A model generated the notes under the pieces. That model searched no databases. It saw only the letters and a program-made list of their open reading frames with translations, and was not told where the DNA came from. From contig CM035321.1 of the NCBI GenBank assembly GCA_000497125.2, forward strand, positions 1,206,001 to 1,270,000: a stretch of 64,000 nt of DNA, in the 5' to 3' direction. Origin of the DNA: Spironucleus salmonicida (taxonomy: Eukaryota; Fornicata; Diplomonadida; Hexamitidae). Both the position numbers and the translations under genes were made by a program. Shown here piece after piece: positions 25,796-36,935 of the stretch. Numbering within the stretch: position 1 is the first letter of the stretch; each line of letters begins with the position of its first letter.

Positions 25796-27692
25796 TCAGA
25801 ATATGAATCGATTACATTTTGCAATTTCACTTTCAACTTCAAACTAAACTGTATTGATTTACTATATCATCGCTTATATGTCGAGTAATATTTTAAATCG
25901 AATATTCCGATAACGAGTGTTAGACCTATAATGATCTTCAAACCAAAATGGAATAAAATTATTTGTAAATGCAATGTCACTACTAATATTTTCTATAATA
26001 AATGGCCATTTCTACTGTTGCAAATTGATATTTATTACACTTTCGTGTATTTCTAATTTCTACATATTAGCAGGTAGAAATCCTTTAAATAATGATATTT
26101 ATGATGCAGTAATAGTCAGATCAGTCAAACTATTGAACTAAGTCAAATTTAATTGACTAATTACATTATCACCAATATTTAAATATTTAACACAATATGG
26201 TATGTAATCATTTACTAGTTATATTTATTATTTTTATATTAAAATAAAAGTTTTAAGTTGGGAACAATTTCTGAGGTCTAAATTTTATACATTACAATGA
26301 ATTAATTACAGGGAAAACACAAAAGTTGGAATAAAAGAATTGGAAAACCTTAAATTATCAGAATTTCTACATTTTAACACTTATAAAGACTCTGCTATAG
26401 TAAGATCGAGATGTTTAATATTTGAATTAGAGAAATCAGCCTATATTAACGTATCTGGCAAAAGGGCACTTGTTAATAATATATTTGTGCCTGGTACATT
26501 AAGACTAGTTAGTTTAGTGTTTGTAGGGTTAAAATAAATTGGCTCTTATTTGTATTATTAACAGTTTGTTAAATATAACTTTTCTAACAATAAAGAATTA
26601 GCAATATTTACACCAGTAATATTACTATTTTATGCCGAAAAATAAAGCAAATTTGGTGGTAAGCCATCAATTTTAATTTCAGATGATTGATCTAAATGAA
26701 TTTCTTCTAATTTAATACAATTTTTAACACATAGTTTCAAATTTTAAATTTTATTAGCTTATAAAATTCGTAGCTGAGATGGTATAATACCATTTTATAT
26801 TTTTAATTCTTCACAACAATCAATATTAATAATTTATAGCACCTTACAATATTAAAGATTAATATTAATGTACTTACAAGTTCTAAGGAATAATTTTTCC
26901 AAATAATTTGGTATAAAATCGTTCTTAAAAACCATACCACTGCAATCATCATAATGAATATCTTTAAGGTTTACTGAAATACTCAAATCTAATGTAACTA
27001 TACTTGACTATTATGCAGTTACTGTTAAAATAGATGGTAATTATTAAGTAAAATCGATTAAACGCGATTACTGTAAATGTATTTATTTCAGCAACACGAA
27101 CTATGAAGAAATATTAATATTATCTGAATTAATAATTGAGAATGCTATAATATTAGATGGGCAGTTACACTATATATTATCACATCGTTCAAGGATAAGA
27201 GTTTATAAATTCTTATTTAAATTAATTGCTGATCGTTCACTGTGGATTAACACTAGTTATTATAACTAATCTGGTGTCTTTATTGCCAAGTCTTTGCTGA
27301 ATAGTTAGCTTTACTAAATTTACCAACGTTATATATCTTTAAAATACACTAAATGATAATATGTCGAATACTGTCAGTTCCTTCAAGCTTATTGGAAACG
27401 TACTTACTAATGAAAGACTGACATTATGACATAATTTTAAATATTCTAATTAAGATCCTTCAAAATTTATTAGTTCAATAGTACATCTCGTTATACTTAA
27501 GTCTTTTAAATTTTCTGTAACTGTAAATTCTTACAATATACATTAAGATAATTAAACTTTTTAAAGATTTTAATAAAAATCAGATTTAAAACATATTATA
27601 TTACAGTTAATTAAATCAATATTACTTCCTTAAAATTTATATTACGCTTAGTTAAAGTCTTCGCTAGTCAAGCTTAGTAAATCATCTTCCAT
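25796..27692 (-). pseudogene. Leucine-rich-repeat protein gene with one frameshift
   Basis: An ATG at 27692 opens an LRR frame that runs to a TGA at 27237. A second frame, free of TGA from 27373 down to a stop at 25796, continues with regular LRRs (LNLxxCxxLxxLxLxxN type, many Asn and Cys). The two frames overlap between 27374 and 27237, and switching between them there gives one LRR protein of about 630 residues. Explanations are a one-base error, an inactivating frameshift or programmed frameshifting. The second frame has no early ATG of its own, so it is unlikely to be a separate gene. Confidence 0.7.
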
Positions 27693-27755: not shown

Positions 27756-29318
27756 ATGTCTAGCAAATAAAATTGGTCTAAATCATACAAAAAACCTTAA
27801 TAAGAAGACAAATATATCTAAAGGCTTCCATTTTTCTTCCGTCATTTGCCTGAATCTGAAATATAAAATTTAAAGTTACCACCACATGCTCCATACTCAG
27901 TGTCATCTTTTGATGACGCGTTTTAAAATGCATATTTTCTTTCAAAGGTGCTAAAAACTACCAAACTAGTAGTAGATCTTACTGCATGTTCAGGAGTTGA
28001 CTCCATTTGTATGGCAATGGTTTTCTAAAATCTTATTAGTTATGAAATAGATACTCCTGCTTTTGAGTCACTCTAAAATCATTTTTAGATTGCGAAAATG
28101 CAAGGTTACAATATTGGTAAGTATGAACTCAAAAACGAATCTGGTGCAGCTGAAATAAGTATTTCTCGTTAGAACACATTGTATTTTTTGGACCCTCCTT
28201 GGGGTGGTCCTGACTATAGAAACAAGTAAAATATTAGGTTAGATTATGGTGAGTATATAGTTGATGAACTAGCGAAAAAACTTAGTACAGATAAAACTAA
28301 TTCTGTATTTTTAAAGTTACCTAAAAACTACGATATGTCTTAGTTTGACTTACAAAATAGCATTATTTTTAAAGAACGGAATCAGATATTTGTGTTAATA
28401 TCTGATTAAGCTAATATTGCGGTTGCTAAGCAAATTAAGGAATCTGTTTATGATAACTCTGGGAGAAAAAAAATATAATCGTTAACCAGCTTAATTTAAT
28501 AAAATATTGGGGATCGTAAAGGTTTAACTGAAGCATTTAAGGATAATATGTTAGCACAGTAAGCTTAGCTAATGAATTAAAAATTAAATAAATATCGTAA
28601 ATTTAACGATTTTGGTTTTTTCCATTCTAAGTAGGTTAGTTTCGGGGTTATAACTGGTTTTGTAATTCCAGAAGCATAAAAAGGAGAAACTGATGGTCCT
28701 TCTGGAGCTATTAGACTTGCTATCATGCTTGCATTGAACTATAATGTAAAAATAACCATTTTTACTGAAAATATTCTTATTACACCCATATAAGAAATGC
28801 TTAAATACGTATATGGAATATTTCCATTCCTACCTTAATTTGAACTTATTTCTCCATCTAATCCTGAGATTAATTCTATATTTAAGCGATAAAATGTACT
28901 TTTTTATGTAGAAAAAGTAGGTCCTACTGTGTCTGGAAAACCACTATCAATGCGTGGAATTGATTGTTCTGAATTTGTTTCTGAATTATTTTCATCTATT
29001 GATGTACTCAGTTTTGGAATCGGTGATGGTGGAAATGAAATTGGTTGTGGTTGTGTAAATCCCGATATAAATTGTGTAATAAAGACAGATTTTGTTGTTT
29101 TATCTGATATAAGCAATTATGGTGCCGGATGGCTTTCAAGAATTATAAATTAACGCTGTTTTGCTAGATTTTTGATGTTAAACTTAGATGAACGTGAACT
29201 AGTATAAAGTGGAGTTAAACATGGGCTTATAGATGGTGTGACTTGTAAAAATGAAATTAGCGTTGATGGTGTTGACTTTGACATGTATTAATAAACGATG
29301 AAATAATTATATGAGTGA
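27756..29318 (+). CDS. Fusion of TGS1-like cap methyltransferase and D-glutamate cyclase domain, 520 aa
   Basis: ATG at 27756, GAG-TGA end at 29316, no TGA between. The N-terminal half is a class I SAM methyltransferase of the TGS1 family: motif I VVDLTACSGVDS (residues ~72-83) and the diagnostic DPPWGGPDY (146-154). TGS1 hypermethylates m7G caps of snRNA/snoRNA. The C-terminal half matches D-glutamate cyclase (PF14336, DGLUCY): GETDGPSGA from residue 310, VEKVGPTVSG, and GDGGNEIGCG from residue 423, then DFVVLSDISNYGAG. That enzyme converts D-glutamate to 5-oxoproline in mitochondria of animals. The two halves are joined by a Gln/Lys-rich helical linker. No targeting signal is obvious. I know of no such fusion, but could not search. 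Confidence 0.85.
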
Positions 29319-29342: not shown

Positions 29343-30473
29343 ATGAAAGAGAATGAGATTATTTTATATAAAAATTGTGAGATAACAATATCTGAAAATA
29401 ACGCAGTTAAACTTTAAATTAAATAATAAAATAATATATATATTGATGAGTTATTAGATTTACCCAAACTATAAGGAATAAGTGTTTAACTAAAAAATAT
29501 TTCGTAATAGTGCTAGTCAACTTTAGATTTACAGAAGTCGCTTCAGTAAAACAAGCTGCGTATTATTATCGTTAATAGTAGTTTTATATGTAACTAACTT
29601 TATGGATTTATGTTTCTTTATTTTTTAGAAATTAATGATTGTTTAGATAGAGATCATTCATTCTTAGATCTTCCTATCTCTTTAGTTTAATTAAAGATTG
29701 GTACACCTACTATTAAATAATTAAATACGTATTAACTTATCAACCTTGAAAAGCTACATATTAATACATTTGAGATTTCTATTTTGAATAATAATAAATT
29801 AATAAAGAATTAATAGGTTATTTCTTTTGAGTCTAGTTCAATAAAATAACTTGTTTTGAGCCTTTCCTCAGAAAATAAGATAGCTTATAAATTTATTTTC
29901 CCGTAATAATTATAAGAAATTACTTTTAACACTCATTCAAAAATATTGTTTCCTTTTATTCCAGCCGCAATAGAAATTGCAATATTTTAAAATGCAAACA
30001 TATCGACTATATAATTTAAGTAAAATAATAAGTTAAGACTATTATAATGCTAAAGCTGTACAATAAGTTGTTTAAATCTTTCTAATAAACAAAATTAAAC
30101 ATAATTTAACTTTGATTAAACATTTGTTTAAAAAGTTATATCAAAGTAATAAATAATTGATATTAGTCAATTTTAGGTTTAGAAACTGCTTATTTTAAAC
30201 TAATATTAATGCTAGCTTATAATTAAAAAATATAAATAGTTATAAAATTTAAGTATTTAAAATTACTATTTACCTTCTAATTTTTAAATTAAAATATGTC
30301 CTTCATTAAACCTATATACACTAAATAATATTTAAAATAGGAAATTATCAATATTGTGCCCACATATGTTCTAATTTAATAGATTAATTCAGTTAAATTA
30401 GTAGATTTATTAGATTTATGTATTAATCAAATAATATTAGTAAATTTTAAAAGATTTAACATATTTTTATTGA
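29343..30473 (+). CDS. Leucine-rich-repeat protein, 376 aa
   Basis: Begins 24 bp after the fusion gene and ends at TGA 30471, five bases before the convergent neighbour's stop. Irregular LRRs of about 21-23 residues with conserved Leu/Ile, Asn and Cys run through the whole length. No signal peptide or membrane helix. Intracellular LRR proteins of this kind are abundant in diplomonads; the binding partner is unknown. Confidence 0.7.
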
Positions 30474-34085: not shown

Positions 34086-34910
34086 TCAGCAGCTCAGTTC
34101 CTCGTCGATTAGCATGTTCTGCTGAGCGACCTTGCTCACCTGGCATACCTGCTGGTAACTTACGTCATACTCGCTGCACTTGTCGCGAACGAAGCCCGAG
34201 ATACGCTCCCCACGCGATTTCGCGGCTGCCAGTAGTGCAGCCAGTCCCTATTCGAACGCTGTAACACCGATAAGCTTCTCGTCCTTAACCAGCGAGTGTA
34301 GCGTCCTGCTAGCACGGCCCAGCAGGTATACCAGCCGTGAATGGTCGTTCGGGCCGTCCAGAGGCGTCTCGGGGCGTGAGTTTCCCAGCATTGATTCGTC
34401 TAGCTGATTAGCTAGTACCTCTATTACGTTCAGCGGCCCCGGCCGGCACACCTGAAAATCTAGGGTTTCTAGGACCAAAGTTTCCGTGTTTAGGAGCTAT
34501 TTTGCGGTGATATTGAAGGATTTCAAGATTGATCGCGCGATTCCTGTAGAGGCCTCTGTTTTCGCTGCAATATCGTAGACTATGGCGGCTGCGAATGTAT
34601 AATTGTCAGATTTTGGAACTTCGAATGCTGGATGCTTGTAGATTGAAGTTAACTTCGAGAGTAATGAGTCAAATAGTGAGATTGCACGTAAATCCACTGA
34701 GGGGGAGAAGTTTTTTTAGATAGTCACCTGGTGAAACCAGTCGATTAATTGGACACGTAACTACGGCTTAAAATGATCAGTTTATGTTGTTTTAAAATAG
34801 TTTGGATGCGCTGTCTAAATCTATGCCTATTTAAGTATATAAATAGCCTGTTCTTTTTCGTAAGGGTTAAATACAGACGACGAAAACCCCAACTCATATT
34901 ATTCCTGCAT
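34086..34910 (-). CDS. Cyclin (A/B-like cyclin box), 274 aa
   Basis: ATG at 34910, the only one between the upstream stop and the conserved domain. The cyclin box is seen in order: a helix of the NPYEKEQAIYIL type, then RVQLIDWFHQV (the MRxxLxDWLxEV signature), SVDLRAISLFDSLLS, AAAIVYDIAAKTEA (where cyclins have the Lys-Glu pair contacting CDK), and a second, more diverged repeat up to the C-terminus. It would activate a cyclin-dependent kinase. The protein is short with no obvious destruction box in the brief N-terminus. Transcribed with two small genes downstream and the phospholipase gene 57 bp upstream. Confidence 0.8.
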
Positions 34911-34967: not shown

Positions 34968-36935
34968 TCACTCTACATCAGCCTTTTTATCGCTGACTTC
35001 TGCGTCATCATCCATTAAAAGAGCTTTCTCTTCATCAGATTTCTAAGTTTTCTTTTAGCTGCAAACAACACCAAACCAGACTATGAAACCAAGGATAAGA
35101 GTCGCAGATGGGATTCCAATAGCCATACCAATGTATAAATCATTTCCACTCCAAACACATTATCTCCCAATTAATTTAAAACCATTAGAACATTTTGTGC
35201 ATGTTTTGTCGAAATTATCAGGACATATATCGCAATAAATACCTGCAAAGAAATCTTCGCATATACAGCTTCCACTTTAGCAGGATCCATGATTACATGC
35301 CATATCGTTCTCTAAGCATCCATAACTAAGCGTTTCTGCCCAAATATTAGGGAAAATATTGTAATAACCTTCCGGTTATTTTTTAGCCTACGTAGAAAAA
35401 TCAAAAGGAGGAATTTCCGACTTTCCACCTTATATCGCACCAACAACAAAGTCAAATACTAAAGCATGTGCTTACAGTAAGTTAACAGTCTTAGAATCCG
35501 TGGCACCCATCAAAGAACTTTCACGATGAGTTACCTCAAAATCACGTAAATCATAGCGAGAAGAGATAGATTATCCAGGATCTTAATTAGAACATGAATC
35601 ATGCTTATAATCATTATAGCGCATAAAACTCTTAAATTCTTCGTAGTTATATACTTTATGTAATTATTTAAATGCAATACAATATCTTGAAGAACGGTTG
35701 TAGCTCCAATAGTCTTCATTTTTAGCATTATAGCCTGCTAATTCAAGAAGGTCCTCATTTGTAGGAACATTAATTGATATATAAAATTTTTATTCTAATA
35801 GAGTGTCAGTGGCATCCCAGAACATTGGACTCGTAGGAACTACTTCTAATGTATAAAGGAGAGATAAATCATGTGATTTAACATAATTAAACCGGTCGCG
35901 CTAATTAGTAGCAGAATCTTTCATTTCCTAAATTGCTAAATAGTCTAAGAACAAATAGTTATTATTATAAGTATATGATGGCTCCGTATTAAATGATTAG
36001 TTCCATTATTATGGTGTCATTGACTGTAAATTGCTTAACTAACATCTAAGCCAAGTAAGGGCAGACTAGTTACCAAATTTATCCATAGAAGAGAATAATT
36101 CCTCATTGAATGTATGATATGTAGTTTCAAGAACTGCTATATTGTTTGAGGCTGTCTCATTAGTGTTTTTAATGACATAAAAATCATCAATAGAAAAGAA
36201 CACACCAGGCATTGAGCTAAAAGTAATGTTCTACTGTTAAGTATATTATAATTTCCAGTTAAAATTGTAAGTTTTAGCTATTCTGACAAAACCTGAGTAG
36301 AAAGAAGTCCATGTATCATGACTGAACCATGCATCGTCAAGTTCAGGAGAAAGTACAATAGCAGCAGAACAATGGTGTTATTAACCTTTTTCAATTTTCC
36401 ACTTAAACTGATCATAAGTTTCTGGATATAAGCCTTCAATATCTTCTAGATCCCCTTAAGCGTTCATCATAAAAATATCAACCATGGTTATTTAAGGATA
36501 TTTTTACTAAACACCCTTTGTGATTCCTTCTAACCAATCATTAATGATAAGGCTAACACCTTACCACCATAAATTATCTGGATTCATAACGGATTTTTCT
36601 TGTAAATACTTTATATTAGTATTTGCATAGTCTATATAAATCTAGTTCCAGTTGGCATTTTTATCATCATATTAATCATTTTTAATATTAAACAAATGGG
36701 CTTATATTAAATCAGCTGTTGCATAACCCTCAGCATATCCTCCGAAATAAGCCTAGTCTTTAGATGTAAACTATTTTCTAGTTTAAACCAAAAGTTCCCA
36801 ACGAGCAGATGTTTCGTTCAAATCATTCAATACGACAGATGCAATACTATCCTAGTTATAAATATTGGAAATAATAACGTTATCTCTGGCACCACTGAAA
36901 GAATACTACATAGCTTTAGCTAGTACCACTAACAT
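34968..36935 (-). CDS. Phospholipase B-like hydrolase, membrane-anchored, 655 aa
   Basis: The family (PF04916, lysosomal PLBD proteins) are amidases/lipases that self-cleave to expose a catalytic Cys. Visible hallmarks: FGGYAEGYATADLI, HHCSAAI (nucleophile Cys), HDTWTSF, SIDDFYVI...LETT, NDYKHDSCSNQDPGQSISSRYDLR and GATDSK. A short hydrophobic N-terminus fits a signal peptide. Unlike soluble PLBD proteins, it adds an EGF-like cysteine cluster (GSCQSGSCICEDFFAG...C), a membrane helix (IGMAIGIPSATLILGFIVWFG) and an acidic tail ending in ADVE. It ends GAG-TGA. Probably an extracellular or vacuolar lipid hydrolase held at the membrane. Confidence 0.85.

Follow-up and report, generated by a model that had tools for sequence, protein, structure and literature searches.

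A TGS1-type RNA cap methyltransferase domain fused to a PF14336 metalloenzyme domain in Spironucleus salmonicida

One reading frame, two domains

We analysed a 64,000-nucleotide stretch of the Spironucleus salmonicida genome (hereafter the window; contig CM035321.1, positions 1,206,001 to 1,270,000), in which a single gene (Table 1) joins a TGS1-type RNA cap guanine-N2 methyltransferase domain (PF09445) to a C-terminal domain of the PF14336 family, also called GLUCM-like_C, DUF4392 or the TON_0340 family. Read with NCBI table 6, the gene has 520 codons from its ATG and a sole TGA, the terminal one, in agreement with an earlier sequence-only reading that had described it as one uninterrupted fused frame. 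At the base composition of this gene, and assuming independent bases, the probability that 520 codons contain no TGA by chance is ~1.5e-5; the remaining two forward frames over the gene contain 5 and 35 TGA. A Pfam search with the whole protein, accepting expectation values (E) up to 1, retrieved two families, PF09445 (E 1.9e-11, 44.3 bits versus a cut-off of 22) and PF14336 (E 4.4e-34, 118.7 bits versus 27.9), the latter along nearly its full profile (positions 2-290 of 291). Both family assignments proposed from the letters alone were thus upheld, and the three motifs quoted with them, DPPWGG, GETDGPSGA (from amino acid (aa) 310) and GDGGNEIGCG, are all present.

A same-frame ATG at 27426 would extend the open frame to 630 codons. 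All six codon-usage windows beginning 5' of the ATG at 27756 score negatively and, because 27426 sits in this negative-scoring stretch, we consider 27756 the better start. Within the fused frame, codon usage computed in 30-codon windows does not fall at the junction between the halves (0.14, 0.13, 0.21, 0.02 and 0.24 nats per codon for windows from aa 211, 231, 251, 271 and 291), on a measure that is weak, with slightly negative windows at aa 11, 331, 351 and 511, the last of which spans the stop. In the predicted models, ~4 residues separate the helices of the two halves, and the in-frame methionines flanking the junction lie at aa 194 and aa 265, with none between them. A separate start for the PF14336 half was considered and rejected on the basis of this methionine-free interval and the helix-to-helix junction.

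The same observations bear on the possibility that two separate genes were joined by an assembly error, or that a transcript boundary was missed within the open frame. Such an explanation would fit the occurrence of the PF14336 half alone in Hexamita inflata (see below), and we nevertheless regard it as quite improbable, since the coding signal shows no drop at the junction, the gap between the two folds is so short and no internal methionine is available there. In addition, the junction lies within a 1.67 Mb contig, and the S. salmonicida assembly was polished with Illumina reads and its annotation guided by RNA-seq, according to passages of PMC9509377. The fusion is confirmed at the level of the sequence. 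Profile searches of the complete genome (14.47 Mb in 37 contigs) detected PF14336 once, in the fused gene, and PF09445 twice, in the fused gene and in an unfused paralog (a 347-aa frame, 50.2 bits).

The frames flanking the fusion, at 25796-26935 (-) and 29343-30473 (+), have no Pfam match at E 0.01 and look, by eye, like leucine-rich repeats. Further along the window lie genes for a Cyclin_N protein (34086-34910 (-), 274 aa, E 1.6e-9) and a phospholipase B family protein (34968-36935 (-), 655 aa, E 2.1e-84).

Table 1. Coordinates of the fused gene, its domains and predicted functional residues (window positions), and of the unfused paralog
Feature	Position	Strand	Basis or remark
Whole fused gene	27756..29318	+	520 aa, table 6; stop TGA 29316-29318
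Ser48	27897..27899	+	Aligned with human TGS1 Ser671, which stacks on 7-methylguanosine
TGS1-type RNA cap guanine-N2 methyltransferase domain PF09445, aa 70-215	27963..28400	+	Pfam, predicted model
S-adenosylmethionine-binding loop, aa 74-82, DLTACSGVD	27975..28001	+	Alignment; human TGS1 has DAFCGVGGN
Catalytic motif DPPWGG, aa 146-151	28191..28208	+	Trp149 aligned with human Trp766
Junction, aa 232-235	28449..28460	+	Two separate models: last methyltransferase helix 218-231, first PF14336 helix 236-247
PF14336 domain (GLUCM-like_C / DUF4392 / TON_0340 family), aa 244-518	28485..29309	+	Pfam, predicted model
ETDGP, aa 311-315; predicted metal ligands Glu311, Asp313	28686..28700	+	Alignment; ligand list in part of PMC5132392
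Predicted metal ligand Glu386	28911..28913	+	Alignment
GDGGNEIGCG, aa 423-432; predicted metal ligands Asp424, Glu428; Cys431	29022..29051	+	Alignment
Predicted metal ligand Asp504 (SVDG)	29265..29267	+	Alignment
Unfused TGS1-type gene with APPWGG	G000 contig C3, L002:1291-2334	-	PF09445 genome search

The methyltransferase half and its relatives

Each half was modelled separately, from alignments of 52 of 121 rows and 51 of 120 rows. The well-predicted part of the methyltransferase model reaches ~aa 231, and its best match and nearest solved structure is human TGS1, in line with the Pfam result. DPPWGG is invariant among the methyltransferase relatives listed (120/120), as are Asp74, Gly80, Glu97, Tyr154, Lys187 and Pro189, all of them retained in the fused protein; Asp99 is likewise retained. 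In human TGS1, Ser671 and Trp766 sandwich 7-methylguanosine (m7G), as described in part of PMC3278928, and by alignment only this stacking pair is retained as Ser48 and Trp149. The virus-type rows of the same alignment have Tyr at the position of Ser48 or differ there in other ways. The loop that binds S-adenosylmethionine (SAM), of the form D-x-x-x-G-x-G-G, keeps Asp74 and Gly80 and has exchanged Gly for Cys at position 78 and Gly for Val at position 81. Judging from these residues, the cap pocket looks intact and the SAM pocket looks in doubt.

The unfused paralog gave a better sequence match to human TGS1 than the fused protein (40.1 versus 21.8 bits). Used alone as a query, the methyltransferase half retrieved three unnamed proteins out of 265 candidates. 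A profile made with these three had 1514 matches, and the rows named after an organism among the 120 listed were five viruses: Catovirus, Terrestrivirus, Harvfovirus, Hyperionvirus and Edafosvirus. Catovirus is a genus of Mimiviridae (taxonomy look-up) and we take the other four to be giant viruses too. The searches that followed the three-protein result were seeded with virus-type rows.

A giant-virus origin (Mimiviridae type) of the methyltransferase half, fused after its transfer, would agree with the resemblance of those three proteins to the five virus-named rows, and with the KLPKNYD motif and the Asp of DPPWGG, which the half has in common with the virus rows and not with human TGS1. 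We consider this origin very improbable. On a profile of the 120 virus-type rows listed, a human TGS1 fragment scored nearly as high as the fused half (79.7 versus 88.2 bits; 48 for the unfused paralog), and in a tree of 69 rows, including 66 of the 120 virus-type ones, the fused row has a branch of 3.45 and belongs to neither of the two large virus-type clades that have support. The virus-seeded comparison, moreover, was made without TGS sequences of Giardia, Trichomonas or other protists. A scan of viral contigs with the methyltransferase alignment matched 79 stretches and confirmed none of them, and a tblastn search of phages with this half gave no match. The near-equal score of human TGS1 and the tree do not bear out a viral source.

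The PF14336 half and the D-glutamate cyclase question

The predicted model of the C-terminal half has the archaeal protein TON_0340 as its best match; the structures ranked directly behind it are, we presume, DHH phosphoesterases. Membership of PF14336 in the DHH family, hinted at by the fold alone, was rejected, as the sequence test gave a result comparable to its controls: hhalign gave a probability of 0.6% and a score of 19.9, against 19.3, 17.2 and 14.2 for column-shuffled, 15.3 for reversed and 13.6 for the methyltransferase alignment. PF01368 is absent from the Pfam matches of the fused protein, and its profile found a single sub-cut-off match in the genome, elsewhere, on contig C1.

The predicted metal ligands E311, D313, E386, D424, E428 and D504 each occur in 119/119 of the PF14336 relatives listed. 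By alignment they pair with Glu59, Asp61, Glu115, Asp157, Glu161 and Asp246, the metal ligands given for TON_0340 in part of PMC5132392. The active site of this half, once checked, was therefore found conserved in all six ligands. Isolated TON_0340 is described in the same portion of that paper as a weak Mn2+ phosphatase with adenosine monophosphate (AMP) as its best substrate.

This half had been named a D-glutamate cyclase domain in the sequence-only reading, a name that our analysis does not support. Such activity was measured on a two-domain mouse protein, DUF1445 plus DUF4392, that is, PF07286 plus PF14336 (a section of PMC5339696). Pfam finds no PF07286 in the fused protein, and a search of the genome gave no match to it (the same search had one in 1/14 control genomes). 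Likewise, PF02538, PF03746 and PF01177 had no genome match, with matches in 6, 5 and 10 of the 14 control genomes, respectively. Since PF07286 and these pathway families were not found, and isolated TON_0340 was assayed as a phosphatase, the label 'D-glutamate cyclase' is an over-call and we prefer the name PF14336 metalloenzyme.

The surroundings of prokaryotic PF14336 genes provide clues about the family as a whole. From 547 confirmed stretches we took the best 80 as loci, located the gene in 71 of them and scanned 67 neighbours, defined as co-directional genes within 150 bases. PF07286 is carried by 18/67 of them; Hydantoinase_B (2), CT_A_B (3) and LamB_YcsF (1), presumably 5-oxoprolinase-type families, also occur. 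Because these neighbours carry PF07286 and 5-oxoprolinase-type families, they support a metabolic role of the PF14336 family close to D-glutamate and 5-oxoproline. The 25 families listed (of 55) in these neighbours do not include PF09445. CHASE2 and guanylate-cyclase domains adjoin prokaryotic PF14336 genes as well, in 5/67 neighbours each.

These data bear on whether the PF14336 half might have been recruited to act on nucleotides or caps, processing either what the methyltransferase takes up or what it produces; it could, for instance, be a Mn2+ phosphoesterase. The sole hints in that direction are the preference of TON_0340 for AMP and the resemblance to phosphoesterase folds, which has no sequence support. 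We find such a recruitment unlikely, given the failure of the DHH comparison, the lack of a PF01368 match, the company that the prokaryotic family keeps with D-glutamate and 5-oxoproline genes, and the identity of its metal ligands with those of the same prokaryotic relatives. In a related scheme, to which we give slightly less credence, the protein would be a bifunctional cap enzyme: its N-terminal half would methylate or grip the cap guanine and its C-terminal Mn2+ site, which might descend from a DHH-like ancestor, would act on the cap phosphates or on a released nucleotide.

A Hexamita relative, the proposed two-enzyme protein and known systems

A search with the whole protein against 5.77 billion proteins scored 7997 candidates, of which 2792 were significant and 120 are listed. 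Among these 120 matches, no second protein with PF09445 plus PF14336 was found besides the fused protein itself. The best other match listed is a 320-aa protein of Hexamita inflata (P0002), in which PF14336 is the sole family over the cut-off. The same pair of domains, for which other diplomonads had been suggested as a place to look, was therefore not seen there: H. inflata has the PF14336 half alone, other diplomonad genomes being outside this search.

A tree built from 81 of the 120 rows listed places P0002 as the sister of the PF14336 half, with 100% support in the Shimodaira-Hasegawa-like approximate likelihood ratio test (SH-aLRT). Both sequences are identical at 37% of aligned columns (106/283) and have EIGCG in common; at Cys431, 118/119 of the relatives listed have Met, the sole exception being P0002. 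The source database names P0002 'RNA cap guanine-N2 methyltransferase'. Because similarity to known diplomonads, S. salmonicida included, came first in the annotation of H. inflata (PMC11787283), this name was probably copied, wrongly, from the fused diplomonad protein. A methyltransferase name without PF09445 is what would be expected in that case, which again argues against two separate genes in S. salmonicida.

We also considered whether P0002 could be a decayed fusion with a methyltransferase remnant. Its first 62 residues scored 30 against aa 1-243 (885/2000 shuffles as high), its first 80 residues 45 against aa 150-260 (32/2000) and its first 95 residues 61 against aa 216-290 (0/2000). 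As the signal grows only once the start of PF14336 is included, we claim no remnant. A scan of viral contigs with the PF14336 alignment matched 57 stretches, with 0 confirmed. In the titles and abstract openings of the literature on Spironucleus and other diplomonads, TGS1 and PF14336, we found no account of this fusion, and a count of the word 'methyltransferase' gave 0 for each of PMC9509377, PMC11787283 and PMC3916229 (main texts; for PMC3916229, whole words only). The domain architecture appears to be new and, among the proteins listed, is so far present in this genome alone.

With a probability of about 0.55, we favour a genuine, lineage-specific gene fusion that yields one protein with two working enzymes whose sites are independent. 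Each half is most likely a working, or at least partly working, enzyme within a single chain. The N-terminal half would be a divergent second TGS1-family enzyme in which Ser48 and Trp149 clasp a 7-methylguanosine-like base and DPPWGG serves to transfer a methyl group from SAM to the guanine N2. In the C-terminal half, the six predicted ligands would bind a pair of Mn2+ or Mg2+ ions, with which a small substrate would be hydrolysed or cyclised, and the ~4-residue helix-to-helix linker would join both enzymes. Most likely, the PF14336 gene already existed in the ancestor common with Hexamita and was joined to the methyltransferase later, in this lineage. The two sites most likely work independently, the fusion providing, through a presumed single transcript, common expression and location.

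Several points weigh against this reading. In the SAM loop, Val81 stands where 120/120 of the relatives listed have Gly, and Cys78 where 117/120 have Gly; because two SAM-loop glycines are replaced, SAM binding by the methyltransferase half may be weak or lost. This half also sits on the long branch mentioned above, among other long branches; the four-residue linker derives from two separately folded models; and a close relative with the same fusion, which would indicate that selection maintains it, was not found.

The altered loop would suit, in particular, a methyltransferase half turned pseudo-enzyme, which would grip m7G or RNA without binding SAM and would serve only to bring the metalloenzyme to a compartment or to capped RNA. 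Apart from the loop, the site is retained, including the m7G-stacking Ser/Trp pair, and the second TGS1-type gene could do the normal job. We consider this alternative rather unlikely. Asp146 and the whole DPPWGG, together with Asp74, Gly80, Glu97 and Asp99, are retained beyond what would be expected of a decayed enzyme; Cys78 recurs in 3/120 of the relatives listed (P0225 included), and the unfused paralog has Ala aligned at position 81.

The fusion pairs a predicted RNA-cap enzyme with a widespread metalloenzyme, and the portions of the literature cited here do not settle the physiological substrate of the latter. Coupling between the halves would point to a substrate for PF14336, a domain also carried by human C14orf159/DGLUCY. 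Without such coupling, the fusion is one specific to this lineage, with a C-terminal half traceable to a protein that stands alone in Hexamita. It would also explain the methyltransferase name apparently miscopied onto P0002.

Among known systems, TGS1 and the Tgs1-Tgs2 enzymes (human structures 3gdh and 3egi; Giardia) resemble the fused protein in PF09445, predicted fold, PPWGG and the m7G Ser/Trp pair. Giardia likewise has two TGS enzymes, of 300 and 258 aa (part of PMC3278928). Compared with human TGS1, the fused protein has DPPW instead of SPPW, two replaced SAM-loop glycines and an attached PF14336 domain. The putative RNA methylases of giant viruses (Catovirus CTV1 P0132 and kin) are the closest methyltransferase relatives listed (~24-36% identity), with KLPKNYD and DPPWGG in common; they have Gly80 and Gly81 in 120/120 of the rows listed, whereas the fused half has Val81, and no second domain is listed for them. 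TON_0340 (PDB 4fc5, 4dwz, 5gkx, 5gl2 and 5gl3) has one domain, acts as a weak, Mn2+-dependent phosphatase and forms homodimers, whereas its counterpart here makes up the C-terminal part of a fused chain and has Cys431 and Tyr455 where the family commonly has Met and Trp. Hexamita P0002, unlike the fused protein, has no PF09445 match. Finally, DGLUCY (C14orf159; 9030617O03Rik in mouse) is also a fusion with a C-terminal PF14336 domain; its partner is PF07286, whereas in S. salmonicida the partner is a methyltransferase.
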